A stretch of DNA of 64,000 bases from Fistulifera solaris. Its lineage: Eukaryota > Bacillariophyta > Bacillariophyceae > Naviculales > Stauroneidaceae. The stretch spans positions 1,291,536-1,355,535 of the forward strand of contig AP026134.1 in the NCBI GenBank assembly GCA_030295235.1. Direction: 5' to 3'. Under the pieces are notes generated by a model, which was given only the letters and a program-made list of their open reading frames with translations, was not told the DNA's origin and did no database searches. Shown here one piece after another: positions 11,934 through 62,353 of this stretch. The position numbers were made by a program, and so were the translations under genes. Within the stretch, counting starts at the first letter, position 1, and each line of letters begins with the position of its first letter.

Positions 11934-13841
11934 CTAGATTGTCGACCAGTCATTGTTTGCTTTTCCCCAGGTTTCGAAAAACCTTCTCGACCTTGGTGTC
12001 ATCTTGTTCGCCACGGCCGCAGGAAATTCAAATAGCTTCGGAGTCTTCAATTCGCTCTTGATCGCGGCTTGAATTTCAATTTCAATTTCTTCCACCGGAT
12101 GTGGTGTGGCACGTTTAAGGATCGATCCACGTTTCACACATTGTCGGAGATTTGAAACGTACGACTCAGCGACAGATCTCATTGTACTTGTATCTATTAC
12201 CGTTGCCGTTTGAACCGGTTCCCCACTAGTTGCTTGTGTTTGAGCGTTTCTAGCCGCAATCAAGTGTTGAACGAAACTAGCCCGTGCATCTTGTGGGCCA
12301 TGAATCTTTTCCGGGTCTAGCGCCTCGTGCTTTTCCTGGCTTTGAGTTGGCGCTAGGGCCGTTAAACTCTCGGCTAAGCATTCGATTTGCGCTTTTACTT
12401 CCTGTAGTCCTTGCATTGTCTTAGTCTCTGCCGTTCGAATTTCGTGTACAAACTCCTCTTTACTCATTTCCAGCGCAGCATCGATTTCTGTACGAATTTG
12501 TTGGATCGCTTCTTCTCTCAAATACTGGATTGTCGGGTCTGTGTTTTCAATGTCTCGATTCATACGGGCCGAATTAGCAACCGGGTTCATCTCCTCGGTT
12601 CTCTCCGTCCGAGCTACGTATCGTCGCTCAAAGGTAGTGATTTCGTCTCTTTCCTGTACTGTATCGGTGGCAGAAAGGTTATTAGCATAATGGAAATTCG
12701 CTGTTTCATTCCGCAGATCCGGGCACTCCTGAGTCATTTTGAATGAGTCAAAAGTATTCAAGTCGTCGTTGACTTTTTGATGTGCTTCAGAGTTTCTCCT
12801 TGTGACAACGATGCAATCATCATGTGTTCCGTAGTGCTCTTGCAACGCGTTAGTCTCGAAAGCATAATTTGAATCTGGATCGATATGTGCAGCCCCTCGT
12901 CGGTTTTCGTCCTCTTTCAGAGCAGTAACGGCCTCGGTAAGTATTTGGATAACCAGGTTCCGTGGAAACGTCACTTTGAAGATACTCATGCTAAGATCTA
13001 CGTTTGTAATGACTCCCTGCATCAATCCAACGATATTCATCGGCATCCGAAAGTGAAAAATCTCCGCATTTTCCGCATCATGATTCCCTTGCGATGTTTT
13101 TTTTCTCAACAGCAGGATTTGATAAACTCGAAACTGAAATATCTTTCGTCTCATGTACCGCAGAGGGTTCCAGAAAGGAAGAGTCGATTGGTATGTGGTT
13201 TACAAATGGCGATTTGTGATGTTGCGTCGGAGATGATCCCCAAAAATCTGCTGGAGTTGGACGTCCCCAAACATCGTTGGCCATGAGATAAGCTCCATCC
13301 TGCGGTATTTGATACTCTGCGCCGTGTCCAATTTTCGTAAGATCCTCTCGATATGGATCTATTCTACGTGCCTGTCGAAAGAAATCTGGATCAGGTGCCG
13401 ATCCCAACAAGTCCGAAGCTCTTCCGATCCGAGGAAATTCCATGGTATCCTTTGACGAGCAAGTAATCTCCTCTTCAGTCGCCTTGCCATCTGAATTTGA
13501 TGTAGAAAAACGATGCAGCGCTTCTGTAATGATCACATCCACGACTGACTGCGGTAACTCCCATGGTAAAAGGGATTCTCTGGAGGAATCGACTCCAGCA
13601 ACATTCGTTTTACGAGGTGATTTGGCAGAGATATTGATACAGACTGTCCCTCTTCTTTTTGCTCTAAGGCATCTAACGGCTGAAACTTTACGAACACAGG
13701 ATCCGGTGATGCAAATAATCTTAAAGACGAATGAAACCGGATTTGAAGTTTGTTTTGTTGTTTGACCGATCGATTGAGGGAAAGAGGTGTCACCCAAGCC
13801 CCGACGGAGGCAAGGAAGAACCCTGAAATTGAGGTCCTCAT
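11934..13841 (-). CDS. Family gene A: presequence-bearing low-complexity protein
   Basis: First of eleven lineage-specific family proteins in this window. Signal peptide RTSISGFFLASVGAW, with W at residue 16 at the predicted cleavage point, is followed by a basic Ser-rich stretch ending SSLRLFAS. This is typical of plastid bipartite presequences. A helix-like motif recurs three times: SLPNHLVKRMLL, ELPQSVVDVIITEAL and FPRNLVIQILTEAV. The middle has DPDFFRQARRIDPYREDL and TPADFWG. The C-terminal half is Glu/Gln-rich and probably coiled. Continuous reading (about 635 aa) needs one base added in the T4 run at 13608-13611 and one removed from the T8 run at 13097-13104. A 65-nt intron is an alternative at the first. 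Function unknown. Confidence 0.7.
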
Positions 13842-14359
13842 TGCACTTCTTCTTAAGTCACAGACGAAGGTAGAGGAAATAAAATAGAAAATCGTTACGA
13901 CGCGTTTTAGTTTGAAGATCGGTTTCCCGCATCTCAGATGAGAAATAAAAAATGTGCATCAATCATCGCATCACATAAAGACACAAATACTAGAGGCAGG
14001 TGTTTTTGAGTTTTCGCATCCGTGATCGCATGATTTATTGTTTCTCCCTTCAAATGTACCTGGTAGCGGTACTCATTTGCCGTCGGATCGCGATTGAGGA
14101 AAAGATTCTTCTGTCTAGGACGCAAAGTGTATTATTTTAGCGTTTTCACGCATGAAGTACAGTCACGATTCGTCGTGAGGACTATGACTGATTTTCATTT
14201 TCCGCAGCTACTATCACGCCTATTACTTGTTGAAAGAAGATCCAATTATCCCTTAGACCTAATCTCTGGCTTCACCATTTCTCTATCCGTTACTAAGCTT
14301 GTCTTTGACTGCTAAAATTCGTTGGGAACCTCGTCGGACTACCTTCGTCACCACCTCCC
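13842..14359. other. Gene-free interval
   Basis: Nothing recognised except a GTACCTGGTA motif near 14056, one of several dispersed in the window. Confidence 0.4.
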
Positions 14360-14770
14360 TTAGAAGCAGATGTCAAAGAGACCTCCGCCTCCAGCCGAGG
14401 GTTTCGAAACAGTCAAAGTAAGTTTTTGCTGACCACCCGTGCAATGACCACCTCCATAGACAGAGCAGCCATAATAGTATGTATTGCCTTCAGACAATCC
14501 CGTCAACTCGCAAGTGCCATCTGACACTTGCGCACAGATCTCAGTTGCCCCAGTAAAGTCGCAGTTATCGTGGGCAGTTTTATCCGGAAACTGCACCACA
14601 TTGTGTGAACCAGTCCAAGTAAGCGTCACCGGCAAATTGGCGCTTGAAACAGTTTTTGTTTTTGCAACGCCGTCGTTCGACCACGGAATGTTGATGGCAG
14701 CAAGTGAAGGTGCGGTTGCCATCCAGGTTGTCAAGACGAACACAGATAGACTATTGGAAGTTATCTTCAT
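14360..14770 (-). CDS. Secreted cupredoxin (phytocyanin/plastocyanin-like blue copper protein)
   Basis: 136-aa protein with an N-terminal signal peptide (ITSNSLSVFVLTTWMATAPSLA) and a single cupredoxin domain. Type-1 copper ligands are visible: His56 in WTGSHNVVQF, then Cys102 and His109 in CSVYGGGHCTGGQ, with Gln114 in the axial position as in stellacyanin-type phytocyanins. Cys110 and an upstream Cys probably form a disulfide. It ends in a Gly-rich tail without an obvious anchor. Likely a secreted or lumenal electron carrier or copper-binding protein. The partner is unknown. Confidence 0.85.
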   Translation of the reverse strand: MKITSNSLSVFVLTTWMATAPSLAAINIPWSNDGVAKTKTVSSANLPVTLTWTGSHNVVQFPDKTAHDNCDFTGATEICAQVSDGTCELTGLSEGNTYYYGCSVYGGGHCTGGQQKLTLTVSKPSAGGGGLFDICF

Positions 14771-15695
14771 TTTTAAGGTGAGGAAGTAGGATCTATGAAA
14801 GAGAAAGGAAAACGACTTTTAAGTAAAGAAAATGGAAAGATCGGCTTTATCTTTTCTATCTACTCCGTATCTGTCAAAAGTTCAGGAAAAAAAAAGATCT
14901 CAATGCGTTGTTGCGTTGCTTGGCGTGGTGAGTGGTGACCGCTGACCGCTGAGACCACGTGACATTGTCCTACATTAGATTCGCTAGTCGGAATTCGAGT
15001 TAAAGTCAGTACTGGACCTTCCTGGTATCGCCGGAAGGACACGTGACGAATTACGAATTACTCCGTTGTCCCGTCGATTTGAGTCACGAATCTCGCATTG
15101 AATTGAACGCATTGATTGATGGTGGATGGTGGATGAAGCCCACGCACAACGAAGCGGTGGAAGGCTTGGAAAGAACAAGTCTAGACCCGATTATTATTTT
15201 TGAACGTCATCAGGAAAAATTTATTGACAGCAACGCTTCTACAAAAAAAAACGTACGTTCTGAGAAAGAAAGCCTCCGCCTGTTTCCCATAACCAATATA
15301 AACAAGACAATCCGTTCTTACCGAAAGCCATAGTTGCATATTGCAGGCGATCCCACTCACGATAGCTGGTAGGTTATTCAATGTAATGGAGAAGGCATGC
15401 TCAGCTCGCCCGTCTTTGGTGGTTTCCTTTTTCTCATGTCGTAGACTAACGATCTCCTTGCAAGTGATCTCATGTTTTTTTGTTGAACGTTACAGAGTAC
15501 ATACCAGGCACAAGACCTCATAAAGCAAAAACAAAAAAACATGAACCTAGAACACAATTACCGATCAATCACTGATCACTGGTCACTGGTGTCACGGGTC
15601 ACAGTGTCAGTGTCACGGTTCTCGGTCGCTGACAGACCACTGAAGCCGCGAAAATCGAAAGAACAATTCTCTCGCCAGAAAATGACAAAAAACCA

Positions 15696-16046: not shown

Positions 16047-16098
16047 TGCACTAAGGCTAGGGAGTTAGAACCAAAGCTTACTCATTGAAGTGTCAGAC

Positions 16099-16190
16099 TG
16101 AAATATATGTGAATGAAAAGTGGAAAATTCAGTCGAATGTCAAGATTAGATTCTGACGATTAAAAAAATTAGGAATAAAATATATATGTG
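16099..16190 (+). repeat. 91/92-bp dispersed direct repeat, copy 1
   Basis: Matches 29084-29174 base for base except one A in an A run. It begins TGAAATATATGTGAATG and ends AATAAAATATATATGTG, so its ends share a direct rather than inverted repeat. Non-coding. Confidence 0.9.
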
Positions 16191-18069: not shown

Positions 18070-18762
18070 TTACCAGGCTCGCTGACCTTGGGACGCCGCT
18101 ACGTAGACTGGCTCGGGCATAGGAACTCCCTGCGGTTCAGAGCCTTTAGTTTGCGATTGAGGGCCTTTGTAGGGCAAGAAGTTGGGACCTTTCAACTTGT
18201 TTTGACTCTCTTGCTTCGACGAAGCCGAAAGAGCATCCAAGTAACTCAGATACATGGCAGCTGCTTCCGCCTTTGACTCGATTGGTTCTCCTTGCGCAGG
18301 AGGCAAGCTAGCAAACACTTCTTGTTTACGGCGTTCCGCAATCGAGGGTGTCCCGATGAGCCAGTCATCTCCTCTTTTGTGAATGACAGGTGCATACGTT
18401 CCGATCTGAACAGTCTCCAGTACGTCGGCAGGTAGCAACCATGTCGGAGGTTTGTAGGGAGAATCGGCCATAGCCAAAAGCCGCAACATGTTGGTAACGG
18501 CGATGGAAGGATAAATTCGAGGAGGGCCGTCGTGCGTTCGACGTCCATCTTTATCGGATCGGCCGATTTTGTGAGAGGTAATAACATCGGCGGGATAGAA
18601 AGAAGGATTCTTGGAAGATCTCTCATAGTCGAAATTGTCTCCTACTTTGAGGAATTCATGTAGCGCGAACGATTTCTGCGACGATCTGATTTCCTGATTC
18701 ATAAATGCAGCAACGCTGCTCAGAGACGACACGGCGAACGCGGTGAAAAGAAGTCGGAACAT
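18070..18762 (-). CDS. Family gene B: compact two-PADV, SYLD, GPNFLPYKGP protein
   Basis: 230-aa family protein, the shortest complete member and so the clearest view of the motifs. Signal peptide ends SSLSSVAAF (F20). PADV boxes at 57-60 (FYPADVITSHKIG) and 111-114 (LLPADVLETVQIG), each followed by an I-G. SYLDAL at 173-178 and GPNFLPYKG at 192-200 close the fold. Gene K near the telomere ends with the same SYLD…GPNF(M)PYKGP pair. The start at 18762 is chosen because the signal peptide begins there; the longer upstream frame is not protein-like. No frame break. Plastid targeting is inferred from the presequence. Function unknown. Confidence 0.85.
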   Translation of the reverse strand: MFRLLFTAFAVSSLSSVAAFMNQEIRSSQKSFALHEFLKVGDNFDYERSSKNPSFYPADVITSHKIGRSDKDGRRTHDGPPRIYPSIAVTNMLRLLAMADSPYKPPTWLLPADVLETVQIGTYAPVIHKRGDDWLIGTPSIAERRKQEVFASLPPAQGEPIESKAEAAAMYLSYLDALSASSKQESQNKLKGPNFLPYKGPQSQTKGSEPQGVPMPEPVYVAASQGQRAW

Positions 18763-19400: not shown

Positions 19401-21629
19401 TCATTGCCGATCCTGCAAGAGTAATTCTTTCAGAGTAAACAGGGCCATCTCTCGAACCTTTGTTGATGTTAACTTCTTTTTTTCTGTCTCTTCTTCTCCA
19501 CTATCTGCTGTTTTGACTATTGACAGACCGATATCTTGTGTTTCGCTTGCGTCCATCTGTTCGCACGTATCCGACGGTTCGCCAAGGTCGTTGCTTGAAC
19601 TGTCAGCATCTTCAACGGCACTTTCAGTGGGTTCAGCCTCAGTGACTCCGAAAAGTATGTCCAAAAGTTTGTCTGTTGCAGGTGCGGGATTTGCACTCTT
19701 TCCGTTGGAGGGACTTGTCACATCATCAACCGTGCCTTCCCCGTTGTGACCCTCCCCATCGATGAATGGTGTTCCGTCTACCCCATTTAGGTTAGCAAGA
19801 ACAGAAGAAGGATCGGCAAGATATTGACTGACCGTTTCGTCCGTCAACTGATCGGAACCATCGGGGCTCCCAGTAAACAAGTACTGCAGAAGCTCCTTAG
19901 TTGATGATTTGGCATTTATGGGAGCCATGGATCCAATAGATGTCTCATCCCAAACGTTCGAAGAGCCTTGGGTTTCAAAAGCAAATTGGATCTTGTTCGC
20001 ATGGTCGGATTCTGATACTAAACTTGGTTGAGCAACATTAGAAGTAGAATCGAGTTGGCCTTCCGGGTCGCCTTGATTATGGTCTCCGTTCAGGCGGACG
20101 CCTGAATTTAAATGCAGATGCTCGGAAATCGTTTCGTCGTCGGAATTCGTTAGCAATTTAGTTTGATCAGTTTCCGTTGAAATCGCTTCTGCCTTGTCAT
20201 CGAACGAAGCCAGGTCATGTACTCCATTAACGCTGGTTGGTTCCATCGTTTCCGATTCCACTACGGAACTTTCTACTACCGAAGGCTCAGAAAACGACAA
20301 CTCTGTTATTTGAAGATCCGCACCTTTCTCAACCAGGTCTGTCTCTGCTAGTGGTGAACTCGTTATTGTCTCAGAGCCGACCGCAGCGTTCTCCGATTCC
20401 AATGAAACTGGCTCTAACAAAGAGTCATTTGTCACTGCAACCACCAACGTATCTTCAACATCCGTTACTGATGAAATTGCTTCGTTTTCCACGTATCTAG
20501 GGCTTTCTCCGTCAATCTGGGCCGCCTCTTGAGCCGCATCAGAGCTGAGAGCGACAGAACCTTCAGTTATTTCCATTGGTGCTTGGTCAGAAATCATGTC
20601 CATTTGCGCTGTTTCTAGATCAATAGACTCTCCTACTTCACCAGTGACTGCAATAGATGTCGAACGAAGACCTTGCTCATCATTTTCATGCAATAAATTG
20701 TCCTCGCTCGACTCCAGCAATGTGCTGTCCAATATCGCTTCAGTCTCGTCATAATTAAAAACCGATGACTCTTCCTCTTGATGTGTACCGTTGACACCAT
20801 TGATAGGCGGTTCTTCTTTAGCATCCTCTATGACTTGTGTTTCCGTGTTCTCCGTCGATGGCTTTCGAAATCCCTGCCGATTGCGTGCCTCTTCTTGCTC
20901 ATTCATGCGATCACGCCAAAACTGTACCTGAATATCACCGACTACAGGTTGCTTCGAAAATGAGTTCCTTGTCGAAACCGCAGAGGCAGATACCGAGTCT
21001 CGTTGTTCCGAGAGAGTTTCCGTCGTAACAACGTCGCCTGCGTGTTCCTCGAGTTCAGCTTGGTCGCTTGCTGCCGACTCGGAACTTGTTTCCGGTAACT
21101 CTTGAGTGTTGTCTTCGCTTATGTTTGCATGAAAGATGGAATTACGTGCTTGTTCCGTTGAAAACGCGGGTCGAAACCCCTTTTTATTCCGCTCTTCTTC
21201 TTGCGCCGTCATGCGGTCACGCCAAAATAGAATATTACGATCATCTACCGAGGTAATGGGCACTGAAGGACGCTGCGGAGCCGAAGGTCGAAACGCACTA
21301 GGATGAGTCGTTGGGGCGGGAGGCCTGGAAACACTCGTCGCAGCTGAAATTAAAAACAGGTCATCCTGATCGCTCGGCAAAGATGATACGGCAGTCGTAT
21401 CTTCAGGAGGAGTTGGTGGAGCTGTAGACTGCAAAGGCTGCACGATAAACGGTTGTGCAGTAGTAGGTTCCCAAGAAGGCTTTTTGAATACATCTGCGGG
21501 CACGAGATAATCTGGATCGTTTACAGCAGACATTTTTACGGATCGAGCTGACATTCGATGCGGACGAATAACCCACGCATCTGTTGCAGTGAACGCAAAG
21601 AATGATACTGTTACAAATCGAATAATCAT
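19401..21629 (-). CDS. Family gene C: long acidic disordered protein with FWRDRM repeats
   Basis: 742-aa acidic, Ser/Thr/Glu-rich protein, probably disordered for most of its length. Start ATG at 21629 begins the signal peptide IIRFVTVSFFAFTATDAW (W19), followed by a basic stretch RPHRMSARSVKMSA. PADV box at 44-47 (YLVPADVFKKPSW). Two copies of FWRDRM-x-E-x-EE-x-RN-x-x-GFR lie in the first third. The C-terminal part has two related short helices (KELLQYLFTG and KLLDILFGV). It ends KVREMALFTLKELLLQ. The reading frame is intact over 2.2 kb, which shows the family is under coding constraint. Function unknown. Confidence 0.85.
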   Translation of the reverse strand: MIIRFVTVSFFAFTATDAWVIRPHRMSARSVKMSAVNDPDYLVPADVFKKPSWEPTTAQPFIVQPLQSTAPPTPPEDTTAVSSLPSDQDDLFLISAATSVSRPPAPTTHPSAFRPSAPQRPSVPITSVDDRNILFWRDRMTAQEEERNKKGFRPAFSTEQARNSIFHANISEDNTQELPETSSESAASDQAELEEHAGDVVTTETLSEQRDSVSASAVSTRNSFSKQPVVGDIQVQFWRDRMNEQEEARNRQGFRKPSTENTETQVIEDAKEEPPINGVNGTHQEEESSVFNYDETEAILDSTLLESSEDNLLHENDEQGLRSTSIAVTGEVGESIDLETAQMDMISDQAPMEITEGSVALSSDAAQEAAQIDGESPRYVENEAISSVTDVEDTLVVAVTNDSLLEPVSLESENAAVGSETITSSPLAETDLVEKGADLQITELSFSEPSVVESSVVESETMEPTSVNGVHDLASFDDKAEAISTETDQTKLLTNSDDETISEHLHLNSGVRLNGDHNQGDPEGQLDSTSNVAQPSLVSESDHANKIQFAFETQGSSNVWDETSIGSMAPINAKSSTKELLQYLFTGSPDGSDQLTDETVSQYLADPSSVLANLNGVDGTPFIDGEGHNGEGTVDDVTSPSNGKSANPAPATDKLLDILFGVTEAEPTESAVEDADSSSNDLGEPSDTCEQMDASETQDIGLSIVKTADSGEEETEKKKLTSTKVREMALFTLKELLLQDRQ

Positions 21630-22041: not shown

Positions 22042-22800
22042 TTAGTTTCTTCCTTTTCGAGATGGGGATGAATTGCTTTTCTTCCGACGACTCGATTTTG
22101 CTTTTGTAGATGTGTCCTTGGTATCCACGGATTGCTTTTTAGATTTCCGGTGTGCATCCCTTCTTGCCGCTTCATCCCAGCGAAGCATTTCTTCTTTTGA
22201 AAAGCTTCTTTCTCTGCCAGACGCTCGAGACTCTTTTGTTCAACGCGTCGAGCTGCTTCGGCCCATCGATCCATTTCGGCTTGTTGAAATGCAACTTGCT
22301 CGGGAGTTAGTTCACGTGGTTTCGCTGTAGGAGTCACTGCAGCTACTGGTAGATAATCGACCGGGTAACTCACTGGAGGGGGAAATGGTTTGACGCCAAC
22401 CACGAACGCCGACTTCGTCAGCCGGATGACCTCGTGTGACTGTTGATGCTGGTACTACTACTCGTGGTGTCGCAGGGACGGGTGGCGAAATAATCTTTTC
22501 TCGTTCCAGTGATGCAGAAGGGTCAATGAGTTCTCCACGTGCCGTAAAAGGTTCTGTTGTCGATTGCGTGCTGTCTGGTGAAGAAGAGCGACTAGCTGCT
22601 GTGGGATTACTGTCATAATTTGAATAAGTGATGCCGCTTACTGGTTCACCTGTGCGACTAATTACATCGGCTGGCAGGAAGTGTGAATCGGAATGGAAGA
22701 TACGAGTGCTCCGCCGATTCGTTAATTGATTGGAGATAATCCAGGCGCTTGTTGTTGGCAGACAACAGATCGCTGTGAGTGATGCCGATCGAACTTTCAT
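22042..22800 (-). CDS. Family gene D: PADV protein with RWxEAARR repeats
   Basis: About 252 aa after repair. Signal peptide KVRSASLTAICCLPTTSAW (W20), then RRSTRIFHS, PADV box 43-46 (HFLPADVISRTGEP). The C-terminal part holds two related helices, EMDRWAEAARRVEQKS and EMLRWDEAARRDAHRKSKK, matching gene E's ELARWEEAAKRDALRRAKK. The repaired reading needs one G removed at 22400-22401 (a 58-nt intron ending at a good polypyrimidine-AG is an alternative) and one A added in the run at 22195-22198. The second shift is strongly supported because it reveals the second RWDEAARR. The stop is then at 22042. Function unknown. Confidence 0.7.
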
Positions 22801-23896: not shown

Positions 23897-25057
23897 TTAT
23901 TCCAGCTTCTCACCATCGGAAGGTGTCTCATCGCTCCATTCTAATCCATTGAGATCAACGCCTTCGTCATCTGGCCGATGGACGAAAAAGTCGCCTTTCT
24001 TTGCTCTCCGAAGTGCATCACGTTTCGCAGCTTCCTCCCACCGTGCAAGCTCGCCGTCAATAAAACTTTTTTTGTCCGACAACGGTTCATTTTCAAGGGC
24101 ACCTTCGTTCTTAACCTCTGTCTCGCCGTCTCGCATCGACGCATTCAGTTCACTGTCAATTTCAATTACCTCATTTTCGATAATTTCATTTTTATTTTTA
24201 GCTGTGTCTTCTGATGTTGTTGCCGAACCGCTGTCATTAATGGTCGAAAACGTTTCTTGTTGCTGGAAGAGTTCCTTTTTGGCCTGTTCGACTTGCAAAT
24301 TCCTCTGCGATTTTTCTTCCGCGAACTCGGCAATATTACCGTGCAGAATATGCTGCCCGGCATCTAAAAATGACATCATTTGGTGCTCCGGATACGGAAG
24401 AGGAATGTCTGGTATCGTAGTTATGCTTGTCGTCGATACTATCGGTAAAGAATCAACCTCGAGGACCGGAGTGTCTGGCTCTTTGGGGAGTGTCGGTGGT
24501 TGTAGTTGAGGTGTGAAAGACGGCATAATGGCTTCTGGCGGCGAAGTGCTGGGTGGAAGGGACTCGCCGGATGAAGTGGGATAGTACGGAATGCGAATTT
24601 TTGTGGATACGTCAGGATGCATCACGTTGGAATTAGAAGGCACCGGCGAAAATGATGACAACGCCGGCTTCGGAGATAGATTGCTAGAGGGTGAAGACCA
24701 TGAAGGACGCCCCGGTGAAGGAGACGAAAGCGCTGACTTGCGAGATAGCATGGACCCCGGTTCATTGTAGTACTGATTTGTTGAATATTGTTGTGACGAT
24801 GAAGAAGGCACTTTTTCTGGTTTGAGTGTTGAAGACCAGGACGCCGGATAGTAGCCCGAACGATGCGTTCTAGAAAGATTCTCGAGCCATTGCGGACTAC
24901 CCAAGATTTCCGGCGCCAAATCTGAGTAAAGGTCATCTTGCGCTCCCGATGCACCGAACTGTCGTGCCGTTGACGAACGTCGACTATGAGAATGCGTCAC
25001 CCATGCTTCTGACACAGAAAGCAGGCATACAGAGATTGCAGAAGCTCGCAAGACCAT
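23897..25057 (-). CDS. Family gene E: Pro/Ser-rich presequence protein
   Basis: 386 aa with an unbroken frame. Signal peptide VLRASAISVCLLSVSEAW (W19) then HSHSRRSSTARQFGAS, a transit-peptide-like basic stretch. The middle is Ser/Pro-rich with HPDVSTKIRI at 147-156, the same motif type as the repeats of genes F and I. The C-terminus is acidic and helical with ELARWEEAAKRDALRRAKK, shared with gene D. It has YPASW and LAPEIL near the N-terminus in the place of the PADV box. Start ATG at 25057 is the only one fitting the signal peptide. Function unknown. Confidence 0.85.
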   Translation of the reverse strand: MVLRASAISVCLLSVSEAWVTHSHSRRSSTARQFGASGAQDDLYSDLAPEILGSPQWLENLSRTHRSGYYPASWSSTLKPEKVPSSSSQQYSTNQYYNEPGSMLSRKSALSSPSPGRPSWSSPSSNLSPKPALSSFSPVPSNSNVMHPDVSTKIRIPYYPTSSGESLPPSTSPPEAIMPSFTPQLQPPTLPKEPDTPVLEVDSLPIVSTTSITTIPDIPLPYPEHQMMSFLDAGQHILHGNIAEFAEEKSQRNLQVEQAKKELFQQQETFSTINDSGSATTSEDTAKNKNEIIENEVIEIDSELNASMRDGETEVKNEGALENEPLSDKKSFIDGELARWEEAAKRDALRRAKKGDFFVHRPDDEGVDLNGLEWSDETPSDGEKLE

Positions 25058-29351: not shown

Positions 29352-30828
29352 ATGAGTGAAACTGGGATGGTGAAGCGCCCATTGGAATCGGATGATATGG
29401 TAAGAAGTGAAAGAATAAGATCGTGTATAAATTCTTGAAAGATGCTGCGTGACTTGTACTCAAATGCATGAATAAGTTACCTTTTCTAACCTTCTTTACC
29501 TTCATTCTCGCAAATAAACATAATTTTAGATCATAGACTCGTTAGATCAACAGCAGCGCATTAGTTTAAACACTTTATTGTCCCGTCCTTCGGAATTTGG
29601 CAACGAAACGGGTCCTCTCGCGTGCGGTGAATTTGATCCTTCTATTTCTCTGCAATTGAAAAAGGTTCTTGTCGTCGGAGCAGGAGGTCTCGGGTGTGAA
29701 ATACTCAAAGACTTGGCTCTCAGTAGCATTCCCTTGAATGTTCACGTCATTGATTTGGATACCATTGACGTGACAAATTTGAATCGACAATTTTTGTTTC
29801 GTCAAAAAGACGTTGGAAAGAGTAAAGCAGAAACCGCAGCAGCTTTCATTCAACAGCGTTGTCCGTGGATTCAAGTCACGCCGCATGTTGGAAAGATTCA
29901 GGAGAAAAACTTGGATTTCTATCGACAATTCGATGTTGTTATTTCGGGTCTCGACAATATCGAAGCGCGACGTTGGTTGAATGCAACGATAGTAGGACTC
30001 GTTGATACCGATGACGACGGAGATATAGATCCATCTACCATTATTCCCATTGTGGATGGAGGTACGGAAGGATTCAGTGGCCAAGCGCGTTTGATATTGC
30101 CCAAAATTACATCGTGTTTCGAATGCACGATCGACAGCTTCCCGCCGCCACGTGCATTTCCTCTTTGTACCATTGCGGAAACACCCCGACGGCCGGAACA
30201 TTGCATTGCATATGCGTATATTCTACAGTTCCCGCGTGAATTTCCCGACACGGTCCTGGACAAGGACAGTCCCGAACACTTGCAGTGGATTTATCAGCAA
30301 GCGGCAAAACGAGCCGAACACTACGGTATCACAGGTGTGACCTACATGATGACTATGGGTGTCGTCAAGAACATCATTCCTGCGGTCGCAAGTACCAACG
30401 CTATTATTGCTGCAGCATGTGTCAATGAAGCCATCAAGTACTTGACATTCTTTAGTCAAAACATGAACTCTTACATGATGTACATGGGAGCGCAGAGCAT
30501 TCATTCGCACACATTTGCCTACGAGCCATCGGAAGACTGTCCTGTCTGCTCCGCTTCGGTCCGCAAAATGACAGTTCCTGCTAGCATCACATTGAATCAA
30601 TTCATTCAAGCGCATCTCAAGGACAGCTCTTTGCGTATGTCGTCTCCCAGCTTGGTTTCGCCTAGTCAAACGTTGTATATGGCCAAGCCAGCGGCACTGG
30701 AATTGGCCACCCGACCTAATCTCGACAAGTTGCTGAGTACTCTCATTCAACCCGGCGAAGAAATCACAGTCACCGATCCGACGTTGCATGGCATTCATGT
30801 TGGTCTGGCCATTACATTTGAAAACTAG
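29352..30828 (+). CDS. UBA3: NEDD8-activating enzyme E1 catalytic subunit
   Basis: Adenylates and thioesterifies NEDD8/RUB1 together with the APP-BP1/ULA1 subunit, feeding cullin neddylation. Exon 1 is 29352-29399 (16 codons). A 130-nt GT-AG intron lies at 29400-29529 and exon 2 is 29530-30828, giving 448 aa, the usual size. ATP-binding GAGGLGCE lies near residues 66-73 and DLDTIDVTNLNRQFLF follows. The catalytic Cys is about 229 in PLCTIAETPR. Zinc cysteines are in CFEC (about 212-215) and CPVC. A C-terminal ubiquitin-fold-like domain follows. The most conserved gene in the window and free of frame breaks. Confidence 0.95.
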
Positions 30829-43030: not shown

Positions 43031-43552
43031 ATGCTTGCCGATTCTCCTCTTGTTCAATGCAACAACGACCTTCGTTTCTGGACGAGTCGAATTGCCTTAT
43101 GCATATATAGCAATATACTTCTCGCCTTGTTCTTTCGTCAGTTTTGGGTTCTTTACGGCGTAGCTTTCATTCTTACAACGCAAATCGCTATGGTGCTGGG
43201 GAAATGGGTAGCTTTCGTTGAATCAGATCCCCAATATAGTGAATTCCAAAAATTCATGCATCAAAATTTCCGGGTCGTGTTAGATGAATACGATAATCTA
43301 ACGAACGGACGCTACGGTTGCGCCAAGCTTGCGGCTGGACGCCTTGCGGCGGAAGTCGGCCTAAAACTCATGATGGAAAAGCTTGTGCGAGCGCAAGGAA
43401 ATTTTCGATCGATGCGAAACGCACTGGAAAATCAGTTGAACGAACATCGAAATTCGTTGTCAAGGTATCAGGCATCGCAGCGTCGGTTGTCGTTTGCTAC
43501 GGACGACTCTTCTTCCTCGTCATCTTTGTCGTTCCGGGAAACAGAGGCTTGA
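43031..43552 (+). CDS. Small two-helix membrane protein, paralogue of the 40.1-kb gene
   Basis: 173 aa. Helices RIALCIYSNILLALFFRQFW and LYGVAFILTTQIAMVLG, then SDPQYSEFQKF, NFRVVLDEY and LTNGRYGCAKLAAGRLA, matching the 40.1-kb gene residue for residue at the conserved positions. It has an extra Gln/Asn/Ser-rich tail of about 50 residues. The two copies face away from the subtilase between them, so this is an inverted local duplication. No family recognised. Both helices together look like a hairpin insertion, possibly into ER or plastid envelope. Confidence 0.76.
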   Translation: MLADSPLVQCNNDLRFWTSRIALCIYSNILLALFFRQFWVLYGVAFILTTQIAMVLGKWVAFVESDPQYSEFQKFMHQNFRVVLDEYDNLTNGRYGCAKLAAGRLAAEVGLKLMMEKLVRAQGNFRSMRNALENQLNEHRNSLSRYQASQRRLSFATDDSSSSSSLSFRETEA

Positions 43553-50997: not shown

Positions 50998-51450
50998 AAC
51001 AGTCTAAGTAATAAGTAACAAGAGGTGGCCGATATTAGACCTAGAGTGAAAGAAATTCACTTTTGTCTGTTTTTTAGTTACGGAGTATTAAAATGAATTC
51101 ATTGCTCTCCATAGCCTTGGTCGTTTTTGTCTCGAGCAAAGCTCTCAAGACTACTTAAAATGGTACAGTGTTTTCTTCTATGGAACAGAATGAACGAAGC
51201 ATGACATCATACTTTGTAGGGTCGCAAGCGTTCTGCACGAGAACAGCACGAGGAAAATCCTTTCAACCGATACGTAGCTACCACGTAGAAATAAGTACTG
51301 TGCGTGATGTTGCCTCTTTATTCTGCCGGGTGGAGTGTTTTACGTTTGATTGATGCTTTTAATTCTGCACTTCCTGAAAGAGAATGCGTTTCAAAGAGAC
51401 TCTTTTGTCAATCTTTATCAGTTTTAACAGAAGATCTTCATTGCTTCTTA
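50998..51450. other. Intergenic interval
   Basis: Between carboxypeptidase and the cation transporter. Nothing recognised. Confidence 0.35.
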
Positions 51451-53165
51451 ATGATGAACAAGCAACGAAGGCTTTCAGTTGTCGTTGCTGCGATAGTAAT
51501 GTCGCTGTCAAAAATAGATGCATTTGCTTCTTCTTTTGTGCAACGACCCGCGCGCACAAAAGTGACTTTTTCATCCTATTCTTCGCAACGGGCGATTTCT
51601 ATGCACATGGGGCACAGTCATAGTCATCATCATCATCATCATCACGATCATGCTTCGTCGACGTCGTCTTTAGTATCGCAAGAAGGCTCGACATTTCTTA
51701 CTCGAATCCTCCGTTTTGCAACACGACGAGTTGCTCGATTTTCTTTGCCGGAGCTGCTGTAGCTGGAGCTGTTTATTTGCAAAAGCGCCATGTGCGTCCG
51801 AGTGATATTGGGTTATTTCTGGTTACTGCTCTTTCGCTGAGTGTGCTGGATAAAATCAAAGAACAAGTCAAAGATTGGAATGTTCGCTTTCAAGAATTTA
51901 CAAAGACTCTAGAAAAACATGCGACGCCGCTTTTTGCAGGAGACGAGGAAGAACGAAAGTCACGGGAACTACATCGTGCTGCAGATCAGGTCACATACCT
52001 AGGAGTTGTTATTAATTTGGTGCTCAGTGGTGGCAAGGCTGTCATAGGTGTTCTATGCCATTCGACGGCTCTGATTGCCGATGCCGGTCATTCTTTGTCG
52101 GATCTATTTTCTGATTTCATTACTTTATATGCGGTGCAGCTCGGTCGCTTACCACCCGATGACGATCATCCTTATGGTCACGGCAAGTTTGAAGCAGTTG
52201 GGAGCTTATTTCTTGCTTTGACTTTGATCGCAACGGGTCTTTCAGTCGGAGCTACGAGCGCGCAGAAACTCTCAGAAATTCTCACATTATCATCATCGAC
52301 GATTGCCGCACCTGCAATTCTACCGAAGCGACCTGCATTGATCATGGCGGGACTCTCGATTGTGTCGAAAGAATGGCTCTATCGTATCACAAAACGCGTG
52401 GGTGAGGCACTCAATTCACAAGTCGTCATCGCAAATGCCTGGCACCATCGCAGCGACGCCTATTCCAGTATTCTCGCCTTGTTCTCTATTGCATTAGCGA
52501 TGAATGGCTGGCTAGCGGCGGATGCCGGTGCCGGATTGGTCGTTGCAGGGATGATTGCACTCACTGGAGTGGAAATTATGGGAGAATCAATCAAGCAGCT
52601 AACCGACACGGTCGATGAAACTCTTGTTCAGCGCGTTGAAATGGTCCTCCATCAAGCCATGCATCACTACGGAAATCGTGTCATTTCTGGAATTCAACGT
52701 GTTAGAGCACGACAAGTGGGTTCCAGTTCTTTGGTCGATGTATCAATCGTGACACCACCAAATGTCACGAATCCTCGAGCCTTGGAAGATGAATTGCGCT
52801 CAAAGATTATGAAACAATTACCTTGTGTAATTGACGCCGAGGTACGGGCAGTCCCCAAAGAAGACAATGAACATGATGCCGCCGCATCACAGTCCACGAC
52901 ACCTCAATCCGTAGTAGAGCAGGATGTTCGAGGTGAAATACAGAAACATGCATCTGTCGTGAGTATTGGGGAGGTTCGCGTCGGTAGTAGTGGCAATGTG
53001 GATGTTACAATCCGCGTAGACCCCTCATCAACCGTACAAGAAGCCAACGGATTGGCTTTGCAACTCATTGATTCGCTGCAGAGTTACGAGACTATAGAAT
53101 CTGCACGAATTTATCTTGATTTGAATGAACACATGTCCATGCCTATCGTCAACACCTCAACTTAA
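51451..53165 (+). CDS. Cation diffusion facilitator (CDF) transporter with plastid-type presequence and His cluster
   Basis: Divalent-metal/proton antiporter (Zn, Mn or Fe) of about 571 aa. The presequence NKQRRLSVVVAAIVMSLSKIDAF then ASSFVQRPARTK has the plastid-type F after the signal peptide. A HSHSHHHHHHHDH cluster precedes the membrane part. Metal-site motifs DAGHSLSDLFSD and NAWHHRSDAYSS, plus DDDHPYGHGKFE, are typical of MamB/FieF-like CDFs. The C-terminus carries two ferredoxin-like CDF domains in tandem (DETLVQRVEMV… and VEQDVRGEIQKH…), unusual since one is normal. One T is missing in the T4 run at 51739-51742, joining RVARFF to FAGAAVAGAVYLQ. Confidence 0.88.
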
Positions 53166-54717: not shown

Positions 54718-57700
54718 TCAATTGCTTTGCCCGTCGTCCCACCTCCTCTGTGACATGGAATCGAGATAAGAGCCACCACCAAACCAGCTGTTCTTCACTT
54801 CAGGATACACTTGGTTGCCTAATCTGGGCGTCGGGGGAGATGTATCGCTTTCCGGCTTCGTTTCCGTGTGAGTCTGGGCGATCTCGTTGTTGTTGATATC
54901 ACTGTAAGTAGATTCAGAAACAGAAATATCTGCCGATGACCGATCGTCTTGCATCATTAACTCTCCGTAGCCATAGTGGGCAAAAGGATTTTGGTTGGGA
55001 TCGGCTCCTTCTTTCGGATTCCATTCCGTATTTGGAAAGAAAGAAGGGAGCTGCACTGAAAACTCCTCTTGTTCAGGAAACGATGAAGAAAGAGTGTGTT
55101 CGTCGACGGCCATTGACTGCTCTTGTGGCAATTCATCGTAAGATTCCAACGTTGGGGACGGCGCCTCGAACTCTGAAAGAGGGTTCTCTTGTACAGAATA
55201 TTCATTTGTCTGACTAGATTTATACAAAGAATCCAGATACGATCGCATTTGAGGCCGGGAAGCCTCTGCAAAACTGATAGCAGGGGGATAGTCATCGCGC
55301 TCTGAATAGTACATGGTCGGCGTCTCTGAGTAGCCACCTGGATGGATTCCAGGAAAGTCGAGAGCAGGCACAGGCTCGCTACTGTTCTGTTCTGTGACGT
55401 AAGAACCCCAATCGAAGACGCCATTGCTTTCTTTCAACTCCTCGTCATCAGGCCGTCGCATAGAATCAAGATATGATTTTCCGTTTTGCCAGCTAGAGGA
55501 CTGAGCGTCATTACGCTCGCGAAAACCTTCAACACCTAAGAGCGGACCATCGCTATACTCTCCACAAACATCGTTTTCTCTTTGATAACCGTCTTCAAAC
55601 GAAGCATCGGACTGAATTGGAGGGAATTCGTCATATGAATTTGAGAAAGGGATTTCGCTAGGGTCAAGAGGGAGGCTTTCGTCGTACATGGTCGTGGGAA
55701 AATCGCGGTCTTCATAGGCAGAGCGTTCGCCGAAAGAACTCGGAGAATAATTATCGCTTTCAAAAGGGGAGGCATCACCGTAGGGGCTCGGAGGGAACTG
55801 TTCTTGACGTTGCTCTTCTTCGCTAGGCAAATCTATAAACACGCTCTCGGCAGGATTGTCCTTGTATTGAGGCGGCCTGCCCCATCCTCCTTGAAATGGT
55901 CCAAACCCTCTATTTGCAGTGTTGTCAACGTACTCTGGTTGCCTTGTCGTAGTCGAACCAAAAAGATTTTCGGGAATATCCAAACGGAGACTACCGGGCT
56001 GGTAATTGCTCCTCAAAAACTCTGTAAAAAATACCGCCACGATTGCTATTACTGCGAACAGTGCCAACACGGTCTCGGTTAAGGTTTCGTTCTGGAGTGT
56101 TTTCAAACTCAGAGCCAGTAAGTGGACGTATTGAAGGAGGAGAAGCATCAGTGCCCCTCGTGGCTTGGGTTGATGCAACTTTAGATTTGTTAGTTTCGCT
56201 TGGACTGCTAGTTTGTTTTGGCGACGGTTGTTTCATGCCCCCAAAAATTGCTTCTCGGGTAGTATCGCCATCGTAAATGGTGGCGGAGGAGCGCTCTTCA
56301 TTTTGTTCAAAAGATTGGCAAAAAACTTTTTCCTATCCACATTAGCGTCATTCGCCTCGCTGGACTTGTTTTCAGCGTTTTTCGCCGGGACTGACGATGT
56401 AAGAGATTGTCGAGTGGGTTGGGCTTCCTTCTGCTTTGATGTCGGTTTCTCTCCAACTACAGCGGGCGCGACGGATACTTGCTGTTTCTTCGTTGGCGGA
56501 GCAATTTCGGACTTGGACGTAGCTTCGACTGGCTTTCCAGTCCCCTGTTCGACCCAGACTTCCTTTTCCGGATCCCAGTGAAGTGGAGCAGCTTCCCCAG
56601 TCAATATTTTAAAACGGCTTCCCGAATAATCACCGGAAATTTGACTGTTTTGAACAGGAAAAGAATCGTCGTCGGCAGTGGGAGCGTCTCCGAAGTGGGC
56701 TCTCGTGGCGTCTTGTAGATACGAGATAACCCCCGATTTATAAGCCGGATCGAAAACACCATTCGGTTGTGTGTAATCAGAAATTGAATCCGAAGGCGTT
56801 GAACTGGAAGCCGAGTTCCAGGACGAAGCAAAACTTTGACTTGCACCTTGAACTCTTCCCCCTCCGGACAAACTGCCGCTAGGATCGAAAGTGCCAGAAA
56901 CTGTTCGTGGTCGATTAAAAACGCCCTGCGGGCTGTATGTTGATGATGAAGGACCGAGCGGAGACGTAGCACGAGAATCCTGAGACGACGCGAACCAATC
57001 GTTTCCGGAACCACCATCACCGCCGCTTGAGAAGTACTGTGGAGTTGACGAAGGAAAAATTGTCGATTTGCCCAAAGTTTGTTTGAGTACATCGAAAGCC
57101 CATGGATCCCATTTCTCTGCATGACTAAAAGAATTGGAGGACGAAGAATCCGAAGACCGTGAAGAATCGCTACCCCACGAAGGTTCGGTTGATGGCGCTG
57201 ATGGTGGCTCGGGAGCAGGAAATGACGTTGATTTACCCAAGGTTTGACTCAATACGTTGAAAGTCCGCGGATCCCACGTTTCTGTCTTTTCATACGAAAT
57301 CATGCGCTGCCCTGGCTGTGGTGTCGGAAATTCTTCCACTTGATCACCACCTGTGGAAAAGTCCTGTGGAGCAGACGATGGGAAGTGCGTTGATTTCCCA
57401 AGTGTTTGACTTAAGACGTCAAATTTCCAGGGATCCCATGTTTCCGCGCGCTGAAAGGATGACCGAGAAGACGAGTCTCTCGTTGATACCGAAACATCAG
57501 TTGTCGACGACAGAGATATACCTGTGTTGGCAAAGTCTTCGAGAGAAGATGAAGGAAACATTGTTGATTTACCTAGAGTCTGGCTCATTACGTCGAATTT
57601 CCAGGGGTCCCAACTTTTCGCTCGATCAAATGATGGATCTGATAGTGCTTGGCTTCCAGCACTAAAAGCGGAAGTGTCTTGGTTGCCACTGGAATCAGAA

Positions 57701-60288
57701 GACGCTTCATCGGGTACATAATCCGCTGGATAGGATGAAGGAAAAATTGTGGATTTTCCCAAAGTCTGACTCATAACATCGAATTTCCAAGGATCCCAGG
57801 TCTCTGCTCTTTCGAATGCGCCTCGACTTGGAGAAGGCGTTCTCGCCCCGAGAGAAGTCTCTAGCCCCGATCCCGCAAAATCTTCAAGCGTGGACGATGG
57901 AAACTGTGAAGATTTTCCTAGAGTCTGACTCATTACATCGAATTTCCAAGGATCCCACGTTTCTGCTCTATCATAGGCATTAGTAGAGCGCTGACTGGAA
58001 CTAGCACCACCACCGTCCGCCGAGTAACCCTGTTTCGCGTCGCCCGTCTCTGAATAAGAATCCGATCCAGGAAAAGTGTAGTCCCAACCTTGATCATCCT
58101 GCTGAGTGTCGAGTATCACATTCTCCGATTCAGAACCGCCCCCTTCACCAGACATCTTTGACTTCGCTAACTGATTCACAAAAGAACCAAAAGTTACTTG
58201 GTGGTTTTCTTGGGTCCCACTCCTCAACGACTGAATCGCTCCTTATCTCGTCATCGACTATGACAGTTGGATTGGAAGCCGTACCGCCTTGCACTGGCTC
58301 CTTGGGTAAGCTATCATTCGCAACCGCTTCCACGTATGCGCCAAACTCACTAGCGACCTTCGGAGTGCCGTCCGCTTTAGTTTCTTCTACCGGCATGCTT
58401 CCTTTTGCTACTTCCTTTACAAAGAGCCAAACTCCTCTGCGGGCTTCGCGGACCCACCACCAGAATCGGGCATCATATCCTTTGCGATTTGTTGTACAAA
58501 TGAGCCGAAATTTGTCGGTGGCTTAGTTGGATCGAATCCATTGCTGCTTAGAACTGTGTCGGACTTATAAGAGCTGGGTGGACTAAACGTGTCTTTTGGT
58601 AATAGAGGAGCAGGAGGTGATCCAGGCTCAAATGACGGACTTCCCGGAGCAAGACTATCGTTCGGCAGTAATGGCGAAGGAGGTGAGCAGGCTTTAAAGG
58701 CTGGAATGGTCGTGCCGGTATTCACATCGGGAACAAGTGGAGCTGGTGGAGATCCAGGCTCAAACTTGGGACTAACTAATGAAGCACTTTCTTTCGGTAG
58801 CAACGGCGCAGGAGGGGGGCCGGGCTCAAAGGCTACGCTGTAAGGTGTAAAGTTGTCGTCGGGCATGAGCGGCGTGGTACGAGACGAGGACACGACCGGA
58901 AAAGGGCGTGCGGCGTCTACGTCAATATCATCGAGCGGTTTAGAAGCTTCGAGATCCGCTGATGGGAAAGGAGCAATTGGAGAAAGTGTGACATTCTCAT
59001 CTGAGGTACCATTAAGTGTGTCGAATCGCATAGTCTCTTTGCTGGAAATCATGCTAATGGCCGAAAATGCAGCGTCCTCTGCACTTGTGTTAGCCAAACT
59101 GAAAGTTTCCTTTATAGCAGACTCAAAACTTTGACCAAGAGAAGTAAGGTTCGACTTGCCCTCAATAGTCGGCACAGAAGTTGGCCGTTTTCGATCCGAC
59201 TTGGCGGGTTCATCCAACCACGTCACCTTCATCTTTGGTATCTTCTTGACTAGCCGCTTCGACGTATTGTTCTCCTCTTCCCCTAGCTTATTTGGCTGCG
59301 ATTTAGAAGTCTCCAATACAGGTGTTGTTCTGTTCGATAGCGTAACGTCTATCGACGCCGATGACGATGACCTCTCTTTTCTTGAAATAGTTGAATTGCC
59401 TGGAACGACGTCCGTTGCATTTGATGCGTTCGCTAATCCGGCATCCACAGCTATAGTGGTATTTCTCGCAAGAAGACCCGTGGACTCTTTCGACGGAAAG
59501 GGAGAATCTGTGTCGACCGGGTCGGCAGTTTCTAAAGTCGCGTTGTCCGTTGAAAGTGATAAATAAGCCTGCACCAAGGAATCATTTGAACCTACGGTAG
59601 ACACAAGAGTCCTGGTCAAATTAGTGGAAAGCCCTTTCTCGAGTTGGTTCTCTTGCAACGAGTTAGCCGATAATTTCGATTTCGTTGCAGTCGGCTGCGT
59701 CGCATTCAAATCGCCAAAAAATCCTGCCAAAGCTCTCGCCACCGATGATATCGGTTTCTTGTCAACACCAGATTTTGTGTCATTATATCTTGGACTGTTC
59801 GTATTGTTCAGTAAATAACTGTTTGGACCAGTGGCTTCGTTTTCGAGAACGGTGCTGTTGGTGTTTTCTTTGTGAATGATGCCTTTAGTCTCTGTTGTGG
59901 CTGTTGCGTTTCTTTCGCTGGATTCACCTGGATTCCGCTGTGCGAAAAGCGAAGTTTTCCACCGTCGACCTTCTATCATTCTGGCGCTTTGTCGCTTATT
60001 TAAGCGAACCCAGGGAAGTTGTCCGACTACTTTTGCCTCATCATGTTTCTCTGAAGTCGATTGTTGGCTGTTCACTTTTCTGCGTTTCCCGATCGCTCGA
60101 CTAAGATCCTCATCTTCAATGTTGATATCTCTCTTGTTAGTGTTATCCGGAAGGGGAATGAAATGTGGTTGTAGGGCGCCGCAATAGAGATGGTGCAAAG
60201 GGACGGTGACCCATCCCTCCGCATAGATCACAAGATGAATAAAAAGGATAGGAAGACAGTAAATCGCTCGTTTCCGTGTTTGTCGCAT
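54718..60288 (-). CDS. Family gene J: giant mosaic repeat protein (about 1,856 aa)
   Basis: Four overlapping open frames form one gene. Order from the N-terminus: signal peptide ending LVIYAEGW (W26); a 550-residue Asn/Ser/Thr-rich region with many N-x-T/S sequons; four PGSPPAPLLPK-type repeats; four NFGSFV-x3-AK-x2-M repeats; six WDPWKFDVMSQTLGKS-x-FPSS repeats 53-70 residues apart; FTYDGDTTREAIFGGM; one transmembrane helix (ETVLALFAVIAIVAVFF); a Tyr/Pro/acidic region with three SYLDS(L/M) motifs, the last near the end. Joining needs one base added at 58421-58423, one removed at 58189-58192, one added at 56275-56277 and one removed at 56100-56103. Motif continuity across each join (EEFGS|FVKEVAK, SNF|GSFVNQLAK) supports this. 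Function unknown. Confidence 0.78.
57035..57990 (-). repeat. Six coding repeats WDPWKFDVMSQTLGKS in gene J
   Basis: Units begin [RHK][AT]E[TK]WDP and end FPSS or FPA. The 30-residue core is conserved to nearly 80 percent by eye, with Ser/Asp-rich linkers of varying length between. Core contains Trp-Asp-Pro-Trp and a predicted short amphipathic helix. Confidence 0.92.
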
Positions 60289-61113
60289 TCTTTGTGTGAG
60301 TTTATATCAACAGTTTGAAGTCAAGTAGCAGTAAAGCCTCATGTCCTCCTTTGTCTGAATGAAAAGGCTTCGCACTGTATTCATTCGTTTTTGTAATGTT
60401 GCGATTGCTAGTACCTCGCGCCATCACGATCACGATGCAACACGAAAAACGAGACACGAGACGACACGAGCGCTTCGAACTCGGCGAGCAGATCTTTCGT
60501 CTGAGTTGCAGTTCTACACTTCGGTGATATACAGTTAGCAGCAGGTAAGAACAGATGGCTGTCTTGATTTGTACCGTGAGTACCACACCCTGTACTTCAA
60601 ATTGTATAGTCAGCGATCGGATCGCCATTTTGAATATTTTCCTTGCTTTTAAGTAAACGTGTGTCCAACGCCAGATCATGGATTGTATTATGGCCAACCG
60701 AAAATTATCTCTTATATACTAGTAAGCGTCTGAATATGAAATATCGCTGCTGGCAGACAGCACAATCCCGAAAGGACTGATGTCATCGATGTGTCTCTCC
60801 GTAGAATTTACGCGCGTTTGTCGTAGGGAAAGAATAGAAACACAAGGTGACGTGGCCTGTCCGCCGCTCATGCAAATTGCAACGTTCAAGTCTTAGTACA
60901 CTAAGACTGTATATACCAGTAACATGCATTGCGTCCGTCGCTCTCTTTTCTCGTACGTTTCATTCAGCTCGCAAATCCTCCGACAAACCATCACAAAACG
61001 ACGCAGATCGACAATCAACAACTTTTAAAAACAAACGACCGCTTTGTCCCTCCATTGCAATAGCAACCGAACTTCTTGCTTGATATTATTTTAGAAAGGC
61101 AGCCTCGCTAATA
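60289..61113. other. Divergent promoter region of genes J and K
   Basis: 825 bp between two family genes transcribed in opposite directions. No gene or repeat recognised, so a shared bidirectional promoter is possible. Confidence 0.4.
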
Positions 61114-62353
61114 ATGACATCAATATCTTTGAAACGCCTTCCTACGAGCCGTCGATGGCTCGTAGCGCATCACCTCCTTTTCTCGGCTGTCGCACCAATC
61201 AACGCGTGGATTGTACCCCCTCCTGTCTTTGATCCTAGAAATCCTATGCCTCCGCAATATTCTTTCTTTCCGGATGAACCCATGGGTGCTCGAAATAGCG
61301 GTCTCTACGGTCGAATAGGGCAGGACGAGCCATTTGTACACCTAATGCAAGACTGGAAGCCTTCGGTCGGACCTTTCTTTAACAACCCGGAACCCCGAGA
61401 ATGGAGAGAACCCAACAACGGACATTATCAAGCACCAGAGCACATGCCTTCGTCATCTCCCTACTACCGCGAGCATCAAGTTCAGCAGCCGCTCGGTCCG
61501 AATGCTTGGGGAAACCCGCTGCCGGAAGCTATGGTTCTTCATTTGCGCCCGATGGGACTTTTGCCGGGCGGAGACGTGAGGTCGCAGTCCCCAAATAATG
61601 ACTCCTGGAATACACAACGTCCGAACAAGTCTCCTTGGCCGGAATGCGTCGCCTCATTCTTGGCGAATAGTGGGGTAAATCCTGCTAGTTCGCAGCAGTG
61701 GATGAATGAAGAGCAAAAACAGACCGTCACGACAGGCCACCGAATATGATGGAAGAGCCTCCGCCAAGGACTCTGGGATATGGTCATTGGCGAACATTCG
61801 ATCCTCGCTCCCCTCTTGGCTACCAGTCAAATTACCCACGATCTCAATGGCGCGCTCGTGGCGAGCCTATGTTCAATGATGCACCATGGCAGGCCGTCGC
61901 GATATTATGACTTCGCACTACGCTTCTGTGGGTGCCGATGAGCCGTGGGGAAAGTCTTGGAATATGCAACACGAGAAAACTTCAATTTGGGAAGGACCAA
62001 GTCATTCGTCATCCTCGTTTGGTTCTGGCTCTTTCTACAGTCAATCGGTGCATACGACCCAAACTTCGTTTGATGGAAGTTCGAGATCTGGTTCTTCTAC
62101 AAACTTCGACAAGCAGTCAGGTAAAACTTCCAGTAAAGTTATCGGGCGAATTCTATGTGGAGTCAGAAGCAATAAAAGACAAAGGAATGGTGAAGGCGGC
62201 TGCATTTACCCAACGAACTGTTGCTCCAACCAATGGTGTTGTTGGGATGCCCTCTACCTTCAAAGCTACCTTGACACCCTTTCTCCAAGAAGTTTCTCCG
62301 CGGGGCGATGGAAGGGTCCAAATTTTATGCCATACAAAGGCCCACAACATTAG
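61114..62353 (+). CDS. Family gene K: telomere-proximal SYLD/GPNFMPYKGP protein
   Basis: About 413 aa after repair and the last gene before the telomere. Hydrophobic leader VAHHLLFSAVAPINAW (W32), then a Pro/Trp/Asn-rich body with repeated short W-containing stretches (REWREPNN, GHWRTFDPRSP, QWRARGEP). C-terminus: SYLDTLSPRS, then GPNFMPYKGP, as in gene B. Restoring the frame takes four one-base changes: add in A5 61715-61719, add at GG 61888-61889, remove in A4 62123-62126, add at GGG 62244-62246. The last one recovers the SYLD motif. Four breaks in 1.2 kb could mean a decaying gene or poor subtelomeric sequence. Confidence 0.7.

Follow-up and report, generated by a model that had tools for sequence, protein, structure and literature searches.

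The final 64 kb of contig C14 in the 51.7-Mb genome of Fistulifera solaris, an oil-making diatom, reach a telomeric chromosome end and carry eleven genes, here called A to K, whose products begin with similar presequences and share short motifs. Do these genes belong together, where would their products go, and what might they do there? An earlier note on this DNA had taken them for a set of multivalent plastid proteins. Across the stretch analysed (64,000 nucleotides, hereafter the window), we find that A to K are a real, conserved and locally clustered set, and that their motifs are kept while the surroundings change. Our best reading, to which we give an even chance, is that they encode plastid-imported, mostly disordered, multivalent scaffolds. 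Direct computation covered the structure of the genes, the type of presequence, the lean towards disorder, the sharing and conservation of motifs and the ratio of nonsynonymous to synonymous substitution rates (dN/dS).

Eleven genes and their presequences

All 11 genes were found where the earlier note had placed them. They are listed here with the presequence cut, placed by hand, marked by a slash; PAD boxes follow the pattern [x]P[AQ][DG][VIFY].

11934 to 13841, minus strand: gene A, about 636 residues through two frame breaks; presequence SVGA/WVTP; PAD-type box TPADFW at residue 195
18070 to 18762, minus strand: gene B, 230 amino acids; presequence SVAA/F; two PADV boxes, SYLD and GPNFLPYKGP; weak match to the Pfam family DPC2 at residues 159-199
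18161 to 18189, minus strand: GPNFxPYKGP motif of B (C14:1309696-1309724)
19401 to 21629, minus strand: gene C, 742 amino acids; presequence ATDA/WVIR; VPADV box at residue 43; FWRDRMxxQEExRNxxGFR repeat in two copies
22042 to 22800, minus strand: gene D, two frame breaks; presequence TTSA/WIIS; LPADV box at residue 42; two RWxEAARR motifs (22160-22182 and 22246-22268)
23897 to 25057, minus strand: gene E, 386 amino acids; presequence VSEA/WVTH; HPDVSTKIRI, and RWEEAAKR at 24021-24043
25973 to 28609, minus strand: gene F, 878 amino acids; presequence SSQA/FTGA; five KIRI-type motifs at intervals of 40-70 residues; W(S/T)SSW...TWVxxLG unit in two copies, and a long charged repeat
32181 to 33607, plus strand: gene G, about 475 residues, one frame break; presequence TSAA/FVVS; MPQDV box at residue 46; YVNDLNDILTVES, resembling a segment of gene I
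33982 to 35635, plus strand: gene H, about 551 residues, two frame breaks; presequence TGYA/WILQ; LSGELLPQGI box; VKMYG close to the C-terminus
36134 to 38831, plus strand: gene I, about 899 residues, two frame breaks; presequence TQGA/WVSN; LSGQILPQGI box; VKMYG; 17 [SP]xDVxxxVKI-type motifs, spaced 25-26 residues apart over the last twelve intervals
37492 to 38465, plus strand: SADVxTPVKIH tandem array of gene I, 75-base unit
54718 to 60288, minus strand: gene J (FisN_23Lh002), about 1858 residues through four frame breaks; presequence YAEG/WVTV; FGSFV units; six WDP[WR]xFxV repeats at intervals of 53-62 residues; SYLDS in three places
61114 to 62353, plus strand: gene K, several frame breaks; presequence PINA/WIVP; C-terminal SYLDTL...GPNFMPYKGP (62315-62343)

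Contig C13 is the collinear homoeologue of C14, likewise ends in a telomere and shows about 80-90% DNA identity across long aligned blocks, as expected of an allopolyploid genome; F. solaris is described as an allopolyploid diatom (PMC5935921). Single-base frame breaks split several of the genes, and they also hit neighbouring ordinary genes (bZIP, trypsin, carboxypeptidase and kinase open reading frames, ORFs). Two of the four breaks in J are confined to the window copy and two fall at an identical site in both homoeologues, where the published proteins of both are intact. Because ordinary genes are affected too and the published proteins are intact at the shared J sites, the breaks are most simply taken as assembly errors.

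Part of J, read through its breaks, is 99% identical to FisN_23Lh002 over 100% of the query and 84% identical to FisN_23Hh002. A shorter J ORF starting at 56148 was set aside as a frame-break artefact; FisN_23Lh002 spans the three broken ORFs. The published J model begins at an internal Met, with the presequence lying upstream in the window and kept in C13. At position 58414 the J repeat array is 569 bases longer in the C13 homoeologue, and the published proteins of the two homoeologues have 4 and 6 FGSFV-type units.

Diatom wall proteins are typically low in complexity, rich in Ser and Pro, and equipped with signal peptides, which favours the view that A to K carry ordinary signal peptides and are either secreted or part of the silica-associated cell wall. 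The presequences argue otherwise. Each consists of a hydrophobic signal and an A or G, followed at +1 by W (8 of 11) or F (3 of 11), with no charge at +1 to +3 and at most one acidic residue in +1 to +15 in all eleven. The rule for secondary red plastids used by ASAFind 2.0 calls for F, W, Y or L at +1, an uncharged start and few early acidic residues (PMC12136025). Read by hand against the rule as described, all 11 genes agree with it, and we regard a wall location as very unlikely. By the same rule, the F or W at +1 and the shortage of acidic residues at the start of the transit peptide make a periplastid location less likely as well.

The W at +1 is always followed by V or I (8/8). For comparison, 16 antenna-protein loci of this genome were examined, and all 10 with a clear presequence have F at +1; these were read by eye, two being unassignable and four incomplete, and some are homoeologue pairs. 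The excess of W hints at a common ancestry of the presequences. The genes are also crowded together, making up 9 of the 12 genes that we counted by eye between A and I. Set against the roughly 12% of plastid proteins in Phaeodactylum tricornutum (1315/10814; PMC12136025), this gives a binomial probability of 9e-7 for a region and count picked post hoc.

Shared motifs and their conservation

We compared motif counts with 1000 local shuffles, using patterns chosen post hoc and scoring F on its first 330 mature residues. All of the chosen motifs exceeded the shuffles. The earlier note had described a box at about residues 43-60 in most of the genes. A PAD box is indeed present in 8 of 11 (shuffle mean 0.52, maximum 4), and in six of these (B, C, D, G, H and I) it sits at residues 42-56; in A and J it lies only deeper in the protein, and E, F and K have none. 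Motifs of the DVxxxVKI type, noted before in E, F and I, occur in B too, bringing the count to 20 copies in four genes versus 0.07 in shuffles. SYLD appears five times in three genes (B, K and J, in the last as SYLDS; shuffle 0.06). The remaining motifs were likewise recovered in the genes to which they had been assigned, against a shuffle mean of 0.00 in each case: RWxEAAxR in D (two) and E, VKMYG in H and I, and GPNFxPYKGP in B and K.

Two of these motifs were followed through the whole genome. The exact DNA form of GPNFxPYKGP has four sites in the 51.7 Mb, namely B, K and their homoeologues. RWxEAAxR gave 10 matches (2 for a reversed-pattern control), five of them in D, E and their homoeologues; matches on C17 and C29 lie in open frames with no resemblance by eye, one on C10 lies outside any open frame of 60 residues, and another on C10 and one on C18 remain.

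A pattern-free test of residues 35-75 found two four-residue words present in at least three genes, versus 0.04 expected (reached in 2 of 500 shuffles), and 30 present in at least two genes, versus 11.5 (1 of 500). The most widely shared three-residue word of this segment, found in four genes, is not unusual (65 of 500 shuffles reach it). Over whole mature proteins word sharing does not rise above chance, at 157 versus a shuffle mean of 116 and a maximum of 165 in 100 shuffles. The relation among the genes is thus concentrated in the N-terminal box and in the pairs B-K, H-I and D-E.

Word sharing at chance level over whole proteins favours a rival view, that the eleven are unrelated, lineage-specific disordered plastid proteins, brought together by chance or by subtelomeric gene birth, with kinship limited to those three pairs. 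The absence of a PAD box from E, F and K fits that view, as do the protein-database searches described below, which found close relatives only. We searched the genome with B, the J middle ORF, the N-terminal part of F, the I repeats and C. B returned itself, its homoeologue, K (E 0.0025) and the homoeologue of K only, while the J middle ORF, the F part and C matched only themselves and their homoeologues. The I repeats matched themselves, their homoeologue and, weakly, a stretch of C16 that was dismissed as unrelated. A protein database of about 5.8 billion sequences was queried with B, the C-terminal 1144 residues of J and an F/G/E chimera; in the J and chimera searches, scoring took in the 8000 and 7999 candidates with the most words in common, and F was not among the proteins returned. 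Beyond the window genes, these queries found two relatives of B, two of J (one being its homoeologue), one of G and one of E, all 82-96% identical; four of the six are, we infer, from other Fistulifera. Both kinds of search would miss relatives sharing short motifs alone.

Sequence searches of the PDB with B, J, F and the PYCO1 motifs returned nothing useful. The charged repeat of F scores above the Plasmodium_HRP cut-off (E 2.5e-13) and also hits LED_rpt (2.6e-6); we took both as low complexity, and set aside weak Pfam matches that link H, I and a relative of E to unrelated families. An AlphaFold2 model of B built from three sequences had a mean predicted local distance difference test score of 34.5 and was not used.

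The homoeologues make it possible to see what is kept. Point estimates of dN/dS are below 1 in all eleven genes, with no test against 1: A 0.45, B 0.04, C 0.46, D 0.43, E 0.17, F 0.09, G 0.15, H 0.55, I 0.22, J 0.37 and K 0.40, where the last segment of the D model is out of frame, as is part of the C-terminal end of the K model. Ten neighbouring control ORFs gave 0.08-0.31. The lowest value, that of B, accompanies 98.3% residue identity with its homoeologue. Between homoeologues, 22 of 557 motif residues have changed, versus 980 of 5832 elsewhere (Fisher 1e-19, treating residues as independent and motifs as picked post hoc); the count leaves out the second RW motif in D and SYLD in K, because both models are out of frame near the C-terminus. 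The contrast is clear in C (2/42 in motifs versus 169/649 in spacers), I (13/193 versus 118/674) and J (4/191 versus 254/1610). The same tendency is seen, from few residues, in B, E, F, G, H and K. In J the six WDPW..QTLGKS repeats, and in C the two FWRDRM repeats, are almost unchanged while their linkers drift. Kept motifs with drifting linkers are the pattern expected of stickers and spacers, and in C, I and J it appears clearly.

This conservation of motif residues speaks against a chance assembly of unrelated proteins, as do the box at residues 42-56 in six genes, the words shared there at a level rarely reached by shuffles, and the W at +1 in 8 of 11 as opposed to F in the clear antenna loci. 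We judge such an assembly to be rather unlikely.

The scaffold reading and its setting

The composition of the proteins is consistent with multivalent scaffolds. By TOP-IDP windows, 67-93% of positions in A to K tend towards disorder versus 10-56% in the ten control ORFs; a charge-hydropathy plot places 8 of 11 on its disordered side versus 1 of 10 controls, and none of the eleven mature proteins has a membrane-type segment. Disorder together with several motif copies, as in a Rubisco linker, is seen in C, F, I and J (I being on the ordered side in the charge-hydropathy plot); most other members have one or two copies.

Several results weigh against this reading. The transit peptides of G and J carry a net charge of -1 and that of K one of -2, and a crude presequence rule applied blindly flags 8 of the 11 genes, missing these same three. 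That rule picks out 19 frames in the 64-kb window (11 of them non-family, mostly short or overlapping), and compared with the adjacent 40 kb (11 frames) the window has no excess density, which also suits an assembly of unrelated proteins. A and B, like I, plot as ordered by charge and hydropathy. The dN/dS of A, C, D, H, J and K exceeds the highest control value, and A (1/5 versus 137/591) and D (2/13 versus 32/210) lack the contrast between motif and spacer. Codon adaptation averages 0.594 in the family, 0.618 in the ten controls and 0.76-0.87 in 9 of 12 antenna genes, those 12 (of the 16 loci, the ones long enough) being themselves the codon reference. B, at 0.659, stands above 9 of the 10 controls. 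Codon usage, an indirect measure, gives no sign of abundant proteins.

On the scaffold reading, the eleven nuclear gene products would be imported into the plastid. There the PAD box, DVxxxVKI, SYLD, RWxEAAxR, WDPW..QTLGKS and FGSFV may act as stickers docking on common partners, with the fast-changing linkers as spacers. The likely site would be a plastid assembly in need of multivalent cross-linking. Part of the set may have arisen by local duplication followed by strong divergence, as suggested by the N-terminal box common to six genes and by the W-type presequence. In a bolder version, a shared docking box (PADV/DVxxxVKI) would bring all eleven lineage-specific scaffolds to one plastid client, for example Rubisco or its rim. 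This we think unlikely; were it true, a whole condensate would be built from neighbouring genes, one scaffold carrying over a dozen copies of the box. Scaffolds of pyrenoids and other plastid assemblies seem to evolve too fast for homology searches, and the window offers eleven concrete candidates for plastid condensate scaffolds outside P. tricornutum, each with two diverged natural copies in this allodiploid diatom. Among the open-access matches listed for searches that included the FisN_23 names, none concerned this locus by its title or the start of its abstract.

The rest of the window includes the chromosome end and several other genes.

14300 to 14800, minus strand: frame beside gene A, resembling a small secreted Cys-containing domain protein
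30346 to 30828: ordinary gene lying between F and G, with the E2-binding domain of a ubiquitin-like E1 enzyme (PF08825)
40111 to 40575 and 43031 to 43552, opposite strands: ORFs for similar small proteins (RQFW...KW...SDPQY...FRVV..EY) with no Pfam match, probably a diverged duplicate pair
51307 to 53165: region containing the cation-efflux ORF at 52344 (PF01545); just upstream of that ORF, an ORF at 51451 has a plastid-type presequence (SKIDA/FASSF) and is possibly the first part of the cation-efflux gene, which would then encode a plastid metal transporter outside the family
62981 to 63699: mostly short tandem repeats (17-, 18- and 7-base periods) adjoining the telomere
63699 to 64000, no strand assigned: telomeric AGGGTT repeat, filling the stretch to the window end

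The pyrenoid and known systems

If A to K are plastid scaffolds, the leading single candidate for their site is the pyrenoid, where the set would build the Rubisco matrix or its rim in the manner of EPYC1 and PYCO1, with lineage-specific stickers. We put this forward tentatively, as doubtful though possible. Of the interpretation in the earlier note, the plastid address, the lean towards disorder, the repeats and the conserved shared motifs are borne out by computation, while the step from there to the pyrenoid rests on one weak Pfam match and on analogy. That match is to DPC2 (PF25195, "Diatom pyrenoid component 2"), with E values of 0.096, 0.11 and 0.075 for B and its two orthologues. The SYLD...GPNF segment of B, which it has in common with K, aligns with profile positions 31-72 of 105. 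Because few Pfam families, to our knowledge, concern diatom plastids, we consider the match suggestive, though not significant alone. None of 20 scrambled or reversed versions of B matches DPC2 at E values up to 1.

Other observations make the pyrenoid harder to accept. The DPC2 scores of 13.3-13.9 bits fall far short of the curated threshold, 70 bits; taken in isolation, the SYLD/GPNF segments from B, K and J have no Pfam match, and the 20 scrambled sequences gave three matches to other families (E 0.05-0.22). A search of the genome for the DPC2 family found no match, but its controls gave none either. The PYCO1 stickers KWSPRGGS, AAEWGSMNQ, ASEWASMNT and GTGYNP are not present beyond chance, as 14-34 of 100 shuffled sets reach their best matches, and a proposed equivalence of the J FGSFV units with the large-subunit helix of PYCO1 was dropped. 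The codon usage described above, an indirect measure, shows no sign of abundance either.

EPYC1, the Rubisco linker of Chlamydomonas, is a disordered protein with evenly spaced short motifs, some of them containing W. It belongs to the green lineage and is likened to A to K by description, not by sequence. PyShell proteins reportedly form an ordered lattice, whereas A to K lean towards disorder; although both are diatom proteins, they are set apart by this description. PyShell sheathes the diatom pyrenoid (PMC13159521).

PYCO1 (Phatr3_J49957), the Rubisco linker of Phaeodactylum, resembles A to K in having a plastid presequence, mostly disordered sequence, and repeated stickers with spacers. 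Its repeats are of roughly 80 residues (PMC10288592); motif spacing is regular in both J and I, and that of J is of the PYCO1 order, which favours the pyrenoid. The authors of that paper report no homologue of PYCO1 in other sequenced algae, a further likeness to A to K and a sign that such linkers may be lineage-specific. The two systems differ in number and in charge, and the charge counts against the pyrenoid: PYCO1 is one basic protein with an isoelectric point of 10.03 and other motifs, and here there are eleven, mostly acidic, with values below 6 in 8 of the 11 mature proteins (K from a truncated model) and of 8.67, 9.75 and 8.80 in B, D and I.

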